From assembly GCA_030044045.1 (NCBI GenBank), contig JASHWO010000268.1:1-6105 (forward strand): a stretch of DNA of 6,105 nt, read 5' to 3'. The translations under genes and the position numbers were made by a program. The notes beneath the pieces are model-generated. The model ran no database searches, was not told where the DNA came from, and was given only the letters and a program-made list of their open reading frames with translations. The stretch comes from Acidimicrobiales bacterium (lineage in GTDB: Bacteria > Actinomycetota > Acidimicrobiia > Acidimicrobiales > RAAP-2). Of the stretch, positions 1 to 4,971 are shown in pieces (the first letter of the stretch is position 1; the number at the start of each line of letters is the position of its first letter).

Positions 1-531
1 GGCTTCACCCTTATCGAACTGATGGTGGTCCTCCTGATCATGGGGATCCTCCTCGCCATCGCCATTCCTACGTTCCTGAGCGTGACGGGCGGTGCGAAGA
101 AGACGTCGGCGCAGTCGAATCTGACCAATGCCATGACGTCGGCAACGGCAATCTACACGAGGACCAGTAGCTTTCCGGCAGCTACAGGAGCGACAACAGA
201 TTCCGCCGAAATGGCTAAGACACTCCAAAAGACACAGACGACCATTAAGTTCGTTCATGGGACGACGGGACCGACTAAGGGGGACAACAGTATCTCTGTC
301 GATGAAGTAACATCGTCGATAGTTATCCTGTCAGCGCTGGATGGAGATGGCTACTGCTGGGTTGCAGTCGATAACGAAGGTACGGCTACCGCGCATATCC
401 CAGCGGGGGACAGTTTCTACGCCAACGCAACCCAAACATCGTCGACAAAGTGTGAGGCGAGTTCATACGCCACAACGACGCTGGCCACATGGCAGCCAAA
501 CTTTAAGACAATTACCAATCCGAAGACATAG
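1..531 (+). CDS. Type IV prepilin (major- or minor-pilin-like), 5'-truncated by the window edge
   Basis: The reading frame is open from base 1 to a TAG at 529-531. It begins directly with the class III signal motif GFTLIEL: Gly is the -1 residue cut by prepilin peptidase PilD, Phe is the N-methylated mature residue 1, and Glu is mature residue 5. The short charged leader and start codon lie upstream of the window. The mature protein is 175 residues. Residues 1 to about 25 form the hydrophobic alpha-1 helix that anchors the subunit in the membrane and packs the pilus core. The rest is a Thr/Ser/Ala-rich globular head. Two cysteines, in GYCW (mature 118) and TKCE (mature 150), are placed like the C-terminal disulfide loop of type IVa pilins. 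A hand count gives about 55% GC over the first 480 bases, well below the genes further right. The gene converges on the pilMN-pilO operon and is closed by the hairpin 22 bases downstream. Type IV pilin family is very likely; whether it is the major or a minor pilin cannot be told. Confidence 0.93.
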   Translation, partial: GFTLIELMVVLLIMGILLAIAIPTFLSVTGGAKKTSAQSNLTNAMTSATAIYTRTSSFPAATGATTDSAEMAKTLQKTQTTIKFVHGTTGPTKGDNSISVDEVTSSIVILSALDGDGYCWVAVDNEGTATAHIPAGDSFYANATQTSSTKCEASSYATTTLATWQPNFKTITNPKT

Positions 532-553
532 CGTATTGGAAGATTAGGAACAA

Positions 554-587
554 AAGGAGGGGCCCAGCGAGAGTTGGGCCCCTCCTT
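554..587. terminator. Bidirectional intrinsic terminator between convergent genes
   Basis: A perfect 13-bp stem (554-566 with 575-587) encloses an 8-base loop at 567-574. The stem is very GC-rich in its centre. On the minus strand the hairpin is followed by TTTTGTT, a usable U-tract, so it fits best as the terminator of the pilMN-pilO-lipoprotein operon, whose last stop codon is at 620-622. On the plus strand the stem ends in CCTT and then CGCG, a poor U-tract, but the strong stem sits 22 bases after the prepilin stop and probably also ends that transcript. Confidence 0.9.
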
Positions 588-619
588 CGCGTACGGAAGA
601 GCGATGGAGGCCATGCTGA

Positions 620-880
620 TTAGCACATCGACGGTGAGCCAGGGGGTGCAGCCGATGCCGTCGGATCGAAGGGATCACGTTGGGATCCGCAGGCTGGCAG
701 GGGCGCCGTGGTCGTGGTTGCCGGGTTCGTCGCCCTGTCCAAGTGTGCTGCGTGGCTTACGTGGTTGACTGCATCTCCGGCCGTTGAGCCACATCCAGCT
801 AGGAGTAGCGTTGAGCCTGAGAGCGCTCCCACCGCGACTGCATGGCGCATTCGGCGCAGAGAAGGGGGCCGGCGACGCAC
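620..880 (-). CDS. Small lipoprotein in the PilP position of the pilus operon, with an RDPF motif
   Basis: The 86-residue product starts at a GTG (880-878) and ends with TAA. The signal peptide has an Arg-rich n-region (RRRPPSLRRMR), a hydrophobic stretch at residues 14-28, and a lipobox LAGC with the lipidated Cys at residue 30, so the mature form is a 57-residue lipoprotein outside the membrane. It has a Thr/Pro linker at 51-62, then Cys64, the sequence QRDPFDP at 67-73, and a C-terminal Cys86. An (R)DPF motif after a flexible N-terminal tail is seen in PilP lipoproteins, and pilP normally follows pilO, so a reduced PilP is plausible by position and motif. PilP is usually about twice this length, and its C-terminal beta-sandwich, which binds the PilQ secretin, is absent. 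The GTG start is favoured because an AAGGA ribosome site overlaps the pilO stop. An internal ATG at 850-848 would give a 76-residue form that still has the lipobox, but it lacks a good ribosome site. Lipoprotein nature is likely; the PilP relationship is inferred. Confidence 0.75.
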   Translation of the reverse strand: MRRRPPSLRRMRHAVAVGALSGSTLLLAGCGSTAGDAVNHVSHAAHLDRATNPATTTTAPLPACGSQRDPFDPTASAAPPGSPSMC

Positions 881-891
881 AGTCGTTTCTT

Positions 892-896
892 TCCTT
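892..896 (-). promoter_or_regulatory. Ribosome binding site AAGGA that sets the GTG start of the lipoprotein
   Basis: On the minus strand the pilO stop codon TAA runs straight into AAGGA, followed by 11 bases and then GTG at 880. Overlap with the upstream stop suggests translational coupling to pilO. No comparable site precedes the internal ATG at 850. Confidence 0.6.
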
Positions 897-1500
897 ACGG
901 CGTAGTTGACGGTGGGGTAGCCGTCGTGAACGTGACGAGGTCGAGGGTGGTGGTCAAGGTCGTCGACCGATTGGTTCCGGGGCCTCCTCCAGTCACGTCC
1001 ACTGACTTGATGTCAGTCAGCCGTGACATCGAGTAGATTTTGGTGACGAGGGTGAGGAGATCGTCGTAGGTCCCTTTCGCGACCAGCGTAACCGGGACAG
1101 TAGTGAACTTTGATCCACTACTCGCGGCGGCCGCACCCCCTGGGCTCACCGATGTCAGGTGCATCCCCGCGGCCGTGACGGTTGCCGACAGCTGGCTGGT
1201 GTAGTTGGCCGTGGTCTTGAAGATATCCGGTGTGGTGGGGACATAGGCTCGCAGGGCATTGTCCATCGACCTGAGCTGGGTGGCCTGCTGAAATGTGTGC
1301 TCCAGCCGGGTCACCTTGGCATCGCCCTGCGCCACCTCTGACTGCAGAGACTGTTGCTGGGTGGCGAGCGTCGAGGCCTTCTTTCCCTGAGGTAGGAAGA
1401 AGGCCACGAGCCATACCAGGATCACCACCACGGCCACCACGGCGGTGATAACCACTTGCGGACGCTTCAGCGCGGCCAGGGTGTCGGGTGAGATCTTCAT
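895..1500 (-). CDS. pilO: Type IV pilus inner-membrane alignment protein PilO
   Basis: The product is 201 residues, close to the family's usual length of about 200. A short cytoplasmic N-terminus ends in KRP. A single membrane segment spans about residues 16-36 (rich in Val, Ala and Ile, ending AFFLPQG). A Gln-rich coiled coil covers about 39-75, and a ferredoxin-like domain fills the remainder. The stretch VPVTLVAKGTYDDLLTLV, then the segment ending RLTDIKSVDV, and a final alternating beta strand match the PilO pattern of a beta strand, a G-x-Y helix and an R-[IL]-x-x-I turn. PilO pairs with PilN through equivalent domains to form the alignment complex that links cytoplasmic PilM and the motor to the pilus. 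Its ATG overlaps the pilMN stop as ATGA (1500-1497), and no strong ribosome site is visible, so translation is probably coupled to pilMN. The tail is Thr/Pro-rich. Identification rests on domain layout and operon order. Confidence 0.9.
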   Translation of the reverse strand: MKISPDTLAALKRPQVVITAVVAVVVILVWLVAFFLPQGKKASTLATQQQSLQSEVAQGDAKVTRLEHTFQQATQLRSMDNALRAYVPTTPDIFKTTANYTSQLSATVTAAGMHLTSVSPGGAAAASSGSKFTTVPVTLVAKGTYDDLLTLVTKIYSMSRLTDIKSVDVTGGGPGTNRSTTLTTTLDLVTFTTATPPSTTP

Positions 1501-3185
1501 GGCACCGGCTGGGTGAAGAGGCTGGTCCGCTGGCTGCCGGCCTTGGCGTCGATGCTGAAGGCAATGCTGAACGTGATGGAGGAACCGTTCGTAAGCGTGA
1601 CCGACGGGGCGCCGAGCGTTAGCGCAGGTGACTGGGCCATGGAGTCGCCGAACTGGCTGAACGCTGTGTAGCTGGTCACGCTGACATTGCCGGTCCCGAT
1701 GCCAATGGGCGTTGCTGTGGTGCTGCCGGTGGACGAGCCGCCGGCAGCGTTCGTCGGTGGCGTGCCGGGCTCGACGTTTTCTGTGAGCTTCAGTGTGGAG
1801 AACACGGCGCTCGACGGCAGGTACTGGCCGAGCTGGTTGAAGACGACGAGCCAGTCCACCTCGCCCTCCACCAGCGGTTCGTCCTGTTGCTGGAGCGTGC
1901 GGATCTGGTCCTGGATGGCGACCACCTTGTCGTACTTCGGGATCTCCACCTTGTTGATGTAGGAGAGCTGGCTGTCCAGCGACGAGACCTGGCCCTCGGC
2001 GTGCTGCACGGAGAGGATCCGCCAGACGGTGCCGCCGATCAACAGGAGCAGGACGATGGCGCCGACGGCCAACAGGGCCTTTCGCACCTTCCGCTCCACG
2101 TAGCCGGCGGTGACCTCGGGGGGGAGCAGGTTGAAGGGCTTGCCGCCGGGGTCGGGCAGGGCCAGGCCCACCGGCACGGCCATGGTGGGGTCGATGGCCC
2201 GGGCCTGCTCCGGGGTGATGGGGAGGCGGCTGGTGTCGATCCCGGCCAGGGGCGAGGCGGCCAGCACCGGCACGTCGATCCCCCGTTCGATCTGGTCGAA
2301 GAGCCCGGCCGTTCGTGACCCGCCCCCGGTGACCAGCACCCGGGAAGGGGTGCTGCGGCCGGGCTGGGAGGAGTAGAAGCGGATCGAGTTCAGGATCTCG
2401 CCCACCAGCTCGGCCACCGCCGACCGGTTGGCCACCTCCACCCGGTGGTCGCGGAGGGGTCCCTCGGCCAGGCGGCGCTTGAGCTGCTCGGCGTCGATCA
2501 GGGGCACGTCGATGGCGCCGGCGATGGCCTTGGTGACGCTCTCGCCGCCCAGGTCGATGGTGCGGACGAACTGGAGCCGGCCGCCCTGGTGCACCACCAC
2601 CATGGTCAGCCCGGCGCCCACCGAGACCACGGCCTCCGGCCCGCCGGTGTGGGCGGGGTCGTGGAGGGCCCGGGCCACGGCGGCGGTGTCCAAGTCGATC
2701 CCCACCGGCTCCAGCCCCGCCGCCTGCACAGTGGCCACCACCCCGCTGATCAGCTCCCGGTGGGCGGCGGCCACCAGCACCCGCACCTGGGGCGACCCGT
2801 CGGCGTCGGTGTACTGGGCGATGACCTTGGCCGAGATCACCGTCTCGTCCATGGGGAAGGGGACCACCTGGTCGGCCTGGAAGCGGACGGCGTCGTCCAG
2901 CTCGTCGGGAGGGAGGGGCGGCATGTCCACCTCGCGGGTGATGGCCCGCAAGCCGGCCACCCCGAGCACCACCCGGTGCTCCCTGAAGCCGCCCTCCCGC
3001 CACACCCGCTGGATGGCCTGGACGACCTGGGAGCGGTCGCGGATCTCGCCGTCGACGATCACCCCCGGATGGATGCCGACCTGCCCGAAGGCCTCCAGGA
3101 CGGGCCGGCTGCCGGGCTCGACCGTGAGCTCGACGGCACGGATGGCGCTGGTGCCGATGTCGAGCCCGACGATCCGTTGTGCCAT
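1497..3185 (-). CDS. PilM-PilN fusion protein: actin-like ATP-binding domain joined to a membrane alignment domain
   Basis: One uninterrupted frame encodes 562 residues. Residues 1 to about 345 are PilM, a cytoplasmic actin/FtsA-like ATP-binding protein. The phosphate-1 motif is at 6-20 (VGLDIGTSAIRAVEL), the phosphate-2 region at 186-202 (VVSVGAGLT onward), the adenosine motif at 283-295 (VLVTGGGSRTAGL), and the typical PilM end VPVGLAL at 337-343. PilN follows with no stop: KPFNLLPPE at 349-357 corresponds to the N-terminal INLLP tail of PilN, the part that PilM binds in separate-protein systems. Then come one membrane segment at about 369-388, a coiled coil at about 392-435, and a ferredoxin-like domain to the end. 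That domain is interrupted by a Gly/Ser/Thr-rich loop at about 472-500. PilM alone is usually about 350 residues and PilN about 200, so both halves are full length. The ATG at 3185 is chosen because AGGGGA sits 7 bases upstream and PilM proteins begin at this point; in-frame sequence further upstream looks non-coding. GspL of type II secretion has the same fused layout. The gene heads the operon with pilO. Confidence 0.93.
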   Translation of the reverse strand: MAQRIVGLDIGTSAIRAVELTVEPGSRPVLEAFGQVGIHPGVIVDGEIRDRSQVVQAIQRVWREGGFREHRVVLGVAGLRAITREVDMPPLPPDELDDAVRFQADQVVPFPMDETVISAKVIAQYTDADGSPQVRVLVAAAHRELISGVVATVQAAGLEPVGIDLDTAAVARALHDPAHTGGPEAVVSVGAGLTMVVVHQGGRLQFVRTIDLGGESVTKAIAGAIDVPLIDAEQLKRRLAEGPLRDHRVEVANRSAVAELVGEILNSIRFYSSQPGRSTPSRVLVTGGGSRTAGLFDQIERGIDVPVLAASPLAGIDTSRLPITPEQARAIDPTMAVPVGLALPDPGGKPFNLLPPEVTAGYVERKVRKALLAVGAIVLLLLIGGTVWRILSVQHAEGQVSSLDSQLSYINKVEIPKYDKVVAIQDQIRTLQQQDEPLVEGEVDWLVVFNQLGQYLPSSAVFSTLKLTENVEPGTPPTNAAGGSSTGSTTATPIGIGTGNVSVTSYTAFSQFGDSMAQSPALTLGAPSVTLTNGSSITFSIAFSIDAKAGSQRTSLFTQPVP

Positions 3186-3375: not shown

Positions 3376-4839
3376 CTACTCGAGCAGCAGGGCCAACACC
3401 GGCGCCGGCACCGCCCAGACCGGGTGCGACAGGTCCACGACGGTCCGCGTGGCTAGGACCCCGCCGGCGAACTTGCCCTCGACCACCAGGGACTCCGAAC
3501 GCCAGCCCGACGACACCCACTTCGACTCCATGGGCACGGTCGCGCGTGGGCCGGCTGGCGCCGGCACGGACGTCGGACCGAAGTCGATCTCGTTGCCCTT
3601 GCCCGTCCGCAGGTAGCCGATCGTGTCGTCGGCCGTCCACCGGCCGGGCTCCAGGCGGTCGACTGCCCGGCCCAGCGCCGCGCCGAGCGCGGCCTCGGTG
3701 AGCCGGGCGAAATCCGGTCGCCCGAGGCCGCTGCGCAGCCGGGAGCCCACCCAGGCGAGGACGGGGTCGGAGAGGTAGAGCTTGGACTGGGCGCCGGCGA
3801 CCCGGTGGCCTTCGTCGTCGATCTGGTGGCACCACAGGGCGGCGAACGCGTGGACGAGCCGGGCCAGCCGCCGGTCGAGTGCCTGGCGGTTGGCATAGCC
3901 GAGGTCCGTCGCCAGTCCGGAGCGGTTCAGCGGGGAGGTGCCGCGCCGCTCGATCTCCCCGAGCAGCTTCGGCACCGAGTCCTCGCCGGCCTCCGGGTCG
4001 ACGTCCCGGTACAGCCACGCTTCGAGGTCGTGCAGGAAGGCGTCGGAGACCTCCCCGTCGACATGGTGCTCGGCCACCGCTCTCGGGAAGCCGCCGGAGG
4101 TGAGGTAGGACTGCCAGGCGAGGTCCAGTTCGCCGGCGAAGATCTCGAGGCCCTCGACGATCGGTCGCGTCGACGGCTCCTGGATCGCCCAGGGGTCGAC
4201 GCTCGGGGGGGGTGGCACGTCCCGCCCGGTCGCTACCAGCACGTGCCGGAACGACATCGGGTGCAGCAGCCGGGTGCGCGCTGCGGGCCGCGTGCCCGCC
4301 CGGCCGGCGAGCAGGTCCCGTTCGACCCGGGCGTCCTCGTGCCAGGACGATCCCGTGCACACGACGGTGTCGGCACCGAGGGGGGTGTTGTCGCGGAGGT
4401 ACTTGAGCTGCTGCGTCCAGCCCGGGATGCCGGTCACCTCGTCGAGCAGCCAGACCCGCCGGGCGTCCTCGGCCGAGCGGGTGAGCTCGCGCCCGAGCTT
4501 CACGGCGCGGCCGAGGTCGCGTGCCGCCATGCCGTCGGCCGGGAGGTAGACGGCCTGGCGGGTGTCGAACCCGCGCTGGCCGCAGAGCCGGGCCGCGGTG
4601 TCCTTCAGGAGGACCGACTTGCCTACCCGCCGGGGGCCCCGGAGCACGACGAGCTGGTCGTCGATCGGGGCCTGGACCACGTCGTCGAGCAGGTCGGACC
4701 GGTAGCCGAGGTCGACCCGGGCACGGGCCGCCAGGGTCGGGTCCGCGGCGGTCCAGGCGGTCGGATCCGACCCGGTGGCCGTGGCACGCCACCAGGGGTT
4801 GCAGTCCACCAGGCGCTCCCGCATCTCGTCGTCGCGCAT
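3376..4839 (-). CDS. AAA_14/DUF4143-type ATPase (COG1373 family) with a C-terminal nuclease-like domain
   Basis: The product is 487 residues, within the 400-500 usual for this family. The AAA domain has a Walker A motif GPRRVGKS at 68-75, Walker B RVWLLDEV at 128-135 (Asp133, Glu134), and a sensor-1-like strand VVCTGSSW at 159-166. The linker carries the family hallmark YLTSGGFPRAV at 245-255. A helix-turn-helix-like segment follows at about 305-335. The C-terminal part (about 345-487) resembles the restriction-endonuclease fold of DUF4143 proteins, with GNEIDF at 415-420 and MESKW at 437-441, giving Asp419, Glu438 and Lys440 in PD-(D/E)xK order. The cellular role of this family is not well established. 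It sits alone between the pilus operon and the divergent carboxyltransferase gene, with no partner toxin, antitoxin or transporter. The ATG at 4839 lacks a ribosome site but has TACGAT 7 bases upstream, which fits a leaderless mRNA. An ATG at 4824 (residue 6) is a weaker alternative. Unusual repeats lie just upstream. Confidence 0.88.
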   Translation of the reverse strand: MRDDEMRERLVDCNPWWRATATGSDPTAWTAADPTLAARARVDLGYRSDLLDDVVQAPIDDQLVVLRGPRRVGKSVLLKDTAARLCGQRGFDTRQAVYLPADGMAARDLGRAVKLGRELTRSAEDARRVWLLDEVTGIPGWTQQLKYLRDNTPLGADTVVCTGSSWHEDARVERDLLAGRAGTRPAARTRLLHPMSFRHVLVATGRDVPPPPSVDPWAIQEPSTRPIVEGLEIFAGELDLAWQSYLTSGGFPRAVAEHHVDGEVSDAFLHDLEAWLYRDVDPEAGEDSVPKLLGEIERRGTSPLNRSGLATDLGYANRQALDRRLARLVHAFAALWCHQIDDEGHRVAGAQSKLYLSDPVLAWVGSRLRSGLGRPDFARLTEAALGAALGRAVDRLEPGRWTADDTIGYLRTGKGNEIDFGPTSVPAPAGPRATVPMESKWVSSGWRSESLVVEGKFAGGVLATRTVVDLSHPVWAVPAPVLALLLE

Positions 4840-4846
4840 GCCCGGG

Positions 4847-4852
4847 ATCGTA
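4847..4852 (-). promoter_or_regulatory. Candidate -10 TACGAT for a leaderless ATPase transcript
   Basis: TACGAT on the minus strand fits the TANNNT -10 pattern common in actinobacteria and ends 7 bases before the ATG at 4839, so transcription would start at or next to that ATG. The intervening CCCGGGC is no ribosome site. The -35 position falls inside the adjacent inverted repeat and does not resemble TTGACA. Half of the hexamer lies within that inverted repeat, so a protein bound there would block the promoter. Confidence 0.5.
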
Positions 4853-4877
4853 CCAGAACCCCCCCGGTTCTGGTACG
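4849..4877. repeat. Perfect 12-bp inverted repeat with C5 spacer abutting the ATPase promoter
   Basis: CGTACCAGAACC (4849-4860) is followed by five C and then its exact reverse complement (4866-4877). The element overlaps the candidate -10 of the ATPase gene and includes the first of three 33-bp tandem units. The two other units keep only an imperfect 7-bp version of the dyad (CAGAACC with GGTTTTG). It could be a dimeric operator or a hairpin in DNA or RNA. Because the proposed ATPase mRNA starts downstream of it, DNA recognition is the simpler reading. Confidence 0.85.
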
Positions 4878-4945
4878 TCGATGACTCAGAACCCCCCCGG
4901 TTTTGGTACGCCGATGACTCAGAACCCCCCCGGTTTTGGTACGCC
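4855..4945. repeat. Three tandem 33-bp units, each with a C7 tract, upstream of the ATPase gene
   Basis: Units begin at 4855, 4888 and 4921, an exact 33-base period. Each opens with AGAA, then seven C, then GGTT(C/T)TGGTACG; the first two continue through CGATGACTC, while the third departs after 4945. Unit 1 differs from unit 2 by two substitutions (C/T at 4870 and T/C at 4878); unit 3 is identical to unit 2 up to 4945. The period is close to three helical turns, so bound proteins would lie on nearly the same face. No spacers separate the units, so this is not a CRISPR array. Near-identity suggests recent duplication or selection as protein-binding sites. Confidence 0.92.
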
Positions 4946-4951
4946 TCGGAA

Positions 4952-4971
4952 TGGCTCCGGATCTGGAGCCA
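4952..4971. repeat. 7-bp inverted repeat near the carboxyltransferase start
   Basis: TGGCTCC (4952-4958) and GGAGCCA (4965-4971) are exact reverse complements around the 6-base loop GGATCT. The element lies 35-54 bases before the GTG at 5006, at and just upstream of the expected -35 position of that gene's candidate promoter, so it may be an operator. It is unrelated to the 33-bp units. A chance dyad is possible. Confidence 0.45.

Follow-up and report, generated by a model that had tools for sequence, protein, structure and literature searches.

An AAA_14 ATPase gene of the Acidimicrobiales and the evenly spaced sites on its promoter that its own product probably reads

Controller (C) proteins of restriction-modification (R-M) systems bind operators on their own genes, where tandem sites lie over leaderless promoters and are occupied cooperatively. 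They are separate small helix-turn-helix (HTH) proteins, whereas in the locus described here the proposed regulator is an ATPase itself; the likeness lies in tandem sites that overlap a leaderless promoter, which here is predicted from sequence. Also comparable are the STAND/NLR proteins, including CED-4 and the plant NLR RPP1, and the archaeal proteins SSO1545 and PABY2304. The ATPase studied here has the STAND/NLR arrangement of nucleotide-binding, helical and winged-helix domains, and differs from all these proteins in that no repeat-type sensor is recognised and in having a C-terminal PD-(D/E)XK-like motif. We know of no private operator array on the genes of STAND/NLR proteins or on those of SSO1545 and PABY2304. 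The mycobacterial regulator IniR, an ATPase with an SSO1545-like domain whose promoter binding was tested by ChIP-seq, is similar in being a signalling ATPase reported on a promoter; according to the available portion of that report, it activates another operon and carries a putative LuxR-like C-terminal DNA-binding domain, whereas the present array lies on the promoter of the ATPase itself (PMC5760070). In the accessible text of a further study the NLR Rx1 binds and deforms DNA via its NB-ARC domain (PMC4599002), and DNA reading by an NLR-like fold is therefore plausible.

The same ATPase matches both the AAA_14 and the PDC-S01 models. In the available sections of one survey PDC-S01 ranks fourth among the commonest defences of prokaryotes, with most such candidates awaiting experimental validation, and those sections mention neither upstream arrays nor autoregulation (PMC12988326); in an extract of another it is the most frequent single locus of a rumen set (PMC13356809). 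A Thermus AAA 14/DUF4143 gene is listed in the accessible part of one published table. No earlier description of such arrays was found in the open-licence literature searched.

The window, that is the whole stretch of DNA analysed, comprises 6,105 nucleotides of an Acidimicrobiales bacterium (GCA_030044045.1, contig JASHWO010000268.1), and its features are collected in Table 1. Tandem Repeats Finder (TRF) delimits an array of a 33-bp unit at 4854-4945 (2.8 copies, 96% matches, score 170), and a repeat search places copies at 4854-4886, 4887-4919 and 4920-4952 that score 100, 94 and 82% against the reference. The arms of the dyad, 4849-4860 and 4866-4877, are complementary at 12 of 12 positions across a 5-nt gap. 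Only the gene-proximal copy forms this perfect dyad, both distal copies having one arm intact and the other altered at its end. When the 168 bp from the start codon to 5007 were shuffled 5000 times (Markov-1), a three-copy array never arose, and a perfect 12-bp dyad (gap of at most 12) arose three times. The initial annotation of this DNA had described 33-bp tandem units and a perfect 12-bp dyad before the ATPase start, with the dyad overlapping a likely -10. Both descriptions are borne out, the former by TRF, the repeat search and the shuffles, the latter by a TACGAT hexamer (4847-4852) whose end lies 7 nt from the ATPase ATG at 4839.

Table 1. Positions of genes, protein domains and predicted promoter elements in the window.
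Feature	Position	Strand	Basis
Prepilin (N_methyl)	1-531	+	domain match
PilO	895-1500	-	domain match
PilM_2 protein with long C-terminal extension	1497-3185	-	domain match
Gene of the AAA_14 ATPase (487 aa), start codon ATG at 4839	3376-4839	-	ORF list, Pfam, PADLOC
PD-(D/E)XK-like motif, E417xD419...E438xK440	3520-3591	-	conservation in aligned members
Winged helix, residues 301-360, proposed operator reader	3760-3939	-	model elements; array partial correlation 0.54
P-loop AAA_14 domain, residues 61-200	4240-4659	-	Pfam; AlphaFold model pLDDT 84.7
Candidate -10 TACGAT, leaderless-type, overlapping the dyad	4847-4852	-	sequence prediction only
Putative operator array, 33-bp unit in 2.8 copies	4854-4945	-	repeat searches, shuffles; homologues with the same architecture
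Gene-proximal unit, perfect dyad CGTACCAGAACC-5 nt-GGTTCTGGTACG	4849-4877	.	arms 100% complementary
Second unit, one arm intact, other altered at its end	4882-4910	.	sequence comparison
Third unit, letters identical to the second over 29 bp	4915-4943	.	sequence comparison

The protein belongs to AAA_14 (PF13173) with 61 bits against a cut-off of 27 (E 1.5e-16, residues 61-200, Pfam), and the PADLOC PDC-S01 model matches residues 46-361 (E 1.6e-18, 64.8 bits). Among 7998 candidates scored, 988 related proteins were found at E<=0.001. A DUF4143 label given previously, which we take to be PF13635, could not be upheld: Pfam DUF4143 does not recognise the window's subfamily, with no match at E up to 10 in the window ATPase or in three homologues. 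A search for a C-terminal repeat sensor found no repeat family among the Pfam matches of the window ATPase, and a search of solved structures by sequence returned 0 chains. The AlphaFold model (pLDDT 84.7, pTM 0.84) contains the elements H306-313, H318-330, E334-340 and E352-356, from which residues 301-360 appear to form a winged helix, and as modelled the fold resembles that of NLR/STAND switches, here with a tail of PD-(D/E)XK-like type. In this tail E417, D419 and E438 are present in 20/20 aligned members and K440 in 19/20 (arginine in L008); the ExD...ExK pattern presumably corresponds to the catalytic motif of PD-(D/E)XK nucleases. The C-terminal domain modelled poorly on its own (pLDDT 52.8), and no nuclease stood among the 50 structure matches listed, a comparison that ran mainly over residues 4-373 and barely included the C-terminal part.

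A profile built from a 20-member alignment was used to scan genomes and yielded 25 loci. Upstream of most start codons there are short units, one to four in number, of which the final one usually adjoins the start; the letters of the unit vary from locus to locus. The upstream set comprised the window and 25 loci drawn from this and further scans (n=26); L011 (a copy of L010) and L003, L023 and L058 (5' part missing) were left out of the counts, and the distant paralogues L050 and L051 stand outside the set. When the best repeat lag was sought between 22 and 46 bp, it fell at 31-34 bp in 23 of these 26 homologous genes, although their units differ, and the upstream repeat was significant against shuffles (p<=0.02) in 19. 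The three genes without this period are L012 (two inverted sites), L022 (masked) and L025 (one site). Counted by eye, the units of L050, from Acidithrix, are 33 bp apart; in L051 no array is evident by eye. For L013 the start is uncertain, as there is no ordinary start codon at the family position. In this set the architecture is conserved and the unit sequence is not. The initial annotation had proposed aligning the regions upstream of related genes and looking for the dyad, and would have given up its idea had the repeat been missing upstream of all close homologues. The period of about 33 bp does recur, and it is the sequence of the units that is not conserved.

Five homologues (L014, L018, L021, L024 and L025) have broken frames with units still upstream, at a period of 32-34 bp in four of them and as a single site in L025; such loci suggest recent gene decay. 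In another homologue, P0002, an N-terminal extension (residues 1-27) resembles translated operator units, which suggests that its start codon is misplaced.

Candidate -10 elements, defined as a TANNNT that ends 2-12 nt upstream of the start codon, were sought in 25 subfamily members (L022, whose array is masked, being left out). They are present in 15/25 and missing by this definition in 10/25, as against 3.5 +/- 1.7 (at most 9) among 500 shuffles; Shine-Dalgarno-like motifs precede 3/25. Because the former are frequent and the latter rare, the transcripts of the subfamily are probably leaderless, with the last site over the promoter.

The ATPase subfamily is rare, being found in 2/396 genomes of one phylum, 3/297 of one family and 4/395 of one class, in overlapping sets that include the seed genomes. 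The array stays with the ATPase gene across unrelated neighbourhoods. In 25 stretches (the window and 24 loci; ORFs of at least 80 aa) no neighbouring ORF family occurs in more than two, and there is no separate small HTH controller gene, in agreement with an earlier remark that no regulator gene lies next door. When one neighbouring ORF was taken from each of eight of the 24 homologous loci, none (0/8) had a PADLOC match at 1e-5.

The units are close to private. In the genomes of relatives, scans with six unit patterns gave 26 matches, 23 of them at ATPase promoters, with no sign of a regulon in the genomes scanned; the scattering of the unit that had been named as a possible objection was not seen there. 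The window-type unit (at most one mismatch, ten genomes) matched twice, both times at the ATPase promoter of G001, and its reversed control matched once. A looser pattern (at most two mismatches, seven genomes) gave six matches, all at ATPase promoters, in four genomes, and a third unit (at most three mismatches, five genomes) gave three, all within its own array. Five of the seven matches of a fourth unit (at most one mismatch, six genomes) lie at ATPase promoters; the other two, with a single mismatch each, lie elsewhere, and its control pattern also matched twice. Two exact unit patterns had 0 matches in viral contigs, where two candidate stretches for ATPase relatives were noted and neither was confirmed. 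Against plasmids and phages, the array gave chance-level matches only (blastn, E about 4) and the window ATPase none at 1e-5 (tblastn); the AAA_14 locus L114 had no match in plasmids (megablast).

Co-variation between array and protein bears on the identity of the reader. The comparison used 20 subfamily members with open frames, the five broken-frame loci and L022 being omitted. Array similarity correlates with protein identity at 0.42. With the rest of the protein removed, residues 301-360 retain a partial correlation with the array of 0.54 (0.44-0.56 over five settings; 0.49-0.59 when members are left out one at a time), while 60-residue windows that end before residue 295 or begin beyond residue 365 reach at most 0.26. 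The value was matched by 0/500 random column sets and by 0/2000 label permutations, which do not preserve relatedness. Since residues 301-360 had been noticed before the permutations, the permuted maximum, which allows for that prior choice, was also recorded; it was reached in 0, 1, 0, 0 and 0 of 300 in the five settings. Within the window's subfamily, these sequences indicate that the array co-varies with the putative winged helix beyond overall relatedness. Replication in 101 broad AAA_14 members failed: the partial correlation is highest away from the HTH core (consensus column 213), with a maximum of 0.14 at columns 141-180 over all pairs and values up to 0.31 around columns 141-200 in pairs of higher identity (40-85%, chosen post hoc). 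Because the peak of the broad set lies elsewhere, the step that would make the winged helix the reader draws on the subfamily.

The wider family was surveyed for the architecture. PF13173 occurs in 47/149 genomes of the phylum of G009, and the genome G164 has 23 matches. In G164 no 12-mer is common to any two of 21 comparable AAA_14 upstream regions, and 15 of these 21 contain a 10-mer repeated directly or inverted within the region. One G164 unit matched three times, always in its own array, and another five times, four in its own array and once at a decayed copy of the gene to which that array belongs. Of 130 broad-set matches 90 were read, and the number fell to 89 (L117 has no ORF), to 87 with 140 bp upstream, to 86 with a P-loop near the start and to 85 after removal of redundancy. 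Controls were ORFs of at least 150 aa picked mechanically from the AAA_14 loci. In a first set of 152 such ORFs the best lag was 22, 23 or 32-34 bp in 28; 26 control regions sharing DNA with AAA_14 upstream regions were removed, and 128 controls were used. The best lag was 22, 23, 32 or 33 bp, a set chosen after first looks at these data, in 47/85 AAA_14 genes versus 14/128 control ORFs (p 3.6e-12). Strong repeats (at least 14 of 18) at these lags occurred in 31/85 versus 0/128 (p 8e-15), seven of the 31 genes being from G164, and strong repeats at any lag in 39 AAA_14 genes versus eight controls. For a second phylum, in which lags and threshold were fixed beforehand, 30 of 45 matches were taken, leaving 29 (L184 has no ORF) and then 23 non-redundant genes; the signal was weak, with the best lag in the set for 6/23 (p 0.09) and strong repeats in 2/23 (p 0.02). 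Because strong repeats are found in 31/85 genes there and in 2/23 in the second phylum, the architecture is common in the first phylum and not universal.

Taken together, these comparisons make it quite likely that the array is the operator of the ATPase gene and that the ATPase, as a dedicated repressor of itself, acts on such phased, private sites. The earlier suggestion that the ATPase itself recognises an autoregulatory site is thus supported as far as sequence can do so, by an array that follows the gene, by near-private units, by a spacing of about 33 bp kept despite divergence and by co-variation with the winged helix. Near-privacy and co-variation fit any self-binding, including one in which an ATPase-nuclease uses the array as its target or for anchoring, sitting or assembling there as sensor or self-mark with any effect on the promoter being secondary, and the conserved PD-(D/E)XK-like motif would suit such a role. 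We nevertheless think it unlikely, as in the window the last unit overlaps the -10, and in most homologues it stands near the start, as operators do, while the viral contigs searched contain no exact copy of the window-type unit and its plasmid and phage matches are at chance level. Much less probable still is a host regulator or nucleoid protein on the array: the operators of global regulators are common, yet in the genomes scanned the present units are nearly restricted to a single promoter each and differ among paralogues in one genome, and no neighbouring gene is conserved.

The remaining explanations dispense with a protein reader. The three G7 runs of the window lie on the coding strand of the ATPase gene, and they might be structured in the transcript or in that strand as an RNA or G-quadruplex element. 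The runs are, however, C on the coding strand in L009 and L056, occur once per orientation in L012 and are missing from several loci (e.g., L016 and L017); moreover, the predicted -10 would place the array upstream of the transcript, and Rfam has no match in the window at gathering scores, so that we give this explanation very little credence. Functionless tandem duplication by replication slippage, which the near identity of the window's copies might evoke, appears the least credible of all, given a period of 31-34 bp in 23/26 homologues with differing units and periods of 22, 23, 32 or 33 bp in 31/85 relatives versus 0/128 controls.

On the preferred reading, the ATPase probably reads evenly spaced sites on its own promoter. 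In the mechanism that we infer, the protein would be an NLR/STAND-like switch in which an AAA_14 nucleotide-binding domain is joined to a helical domain and a winged helix, followed by a PD-(D/E)XK-like tail with possible nuclease activity. At rest it would bind the tandem sites, held through the winged helix. Given a spacing of about three turns (two in some relatives), neighbouring molecules could stack cooperatively on the same face of the DNA. The gene-proximal site would cover the -10 and spacer of the leaderless promoter, so that the gene would be nearly silent when bound, and release would follow a nucleotide-coupled signal. As each gene has its own site sequence, many copies could coexist in one genome without cross-talk. 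More generally, the comparisons suggest that AAA_14 proteins may silence their own genes via private DNA sites. A bolder version, which includes a role in defence and which we hold to be doubtful, is that AAA_14/PDC-S01 proteins sit on their own promoters as NLR-like immune switches, where the phased array would template an inactive, DNA-bound oligomer and a phage signal would derepress the gene and free the nuclease; if so, the genes of this kind in one genome would make up a family of sentinels, each silencing itself and orthogonal to the others.

PDC-S01 ranks with the commonest defence candidates and is apparently uncharacterised, and a self-read operator would offer a concrete handle on it. 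If true, the self-operator reading assigns to each protein a predicted DNA ligand, offers a reporter for triggers, suggests how 23 AAA_14 matches can coexist in one genome without cross-talk, and would amount to a large set of naturally orthogonal repressor-operator pairs as well as to a possible bacterial NLR-like switch with a DNA-reading winged helix.

Some further observations concern other sequences. In G164 the interval 1340-1700 of L190 contains decayed AAA_14 genes, with a remnant of the L114 gene that has one unit left and, beside it, a decayed orphan array of TTTGCAAAATCCC in two 33-bp steps. Upstream of the AAA_14 genes of L146, L150, L154 and L158 there is a similar TTACTCAATATGTTGAGTAA-like palindrome with a 22-bp period, the L146 and L150 proteins being 72% identical. 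In the window itself, positions 1-3185 are occupied by type IV pilus genes, and a 12-bp inverted repeat (AAGGAGGGGCCC) at 554-590, directly 3' of the prepilin stop, is terminator-like with no evident T run.
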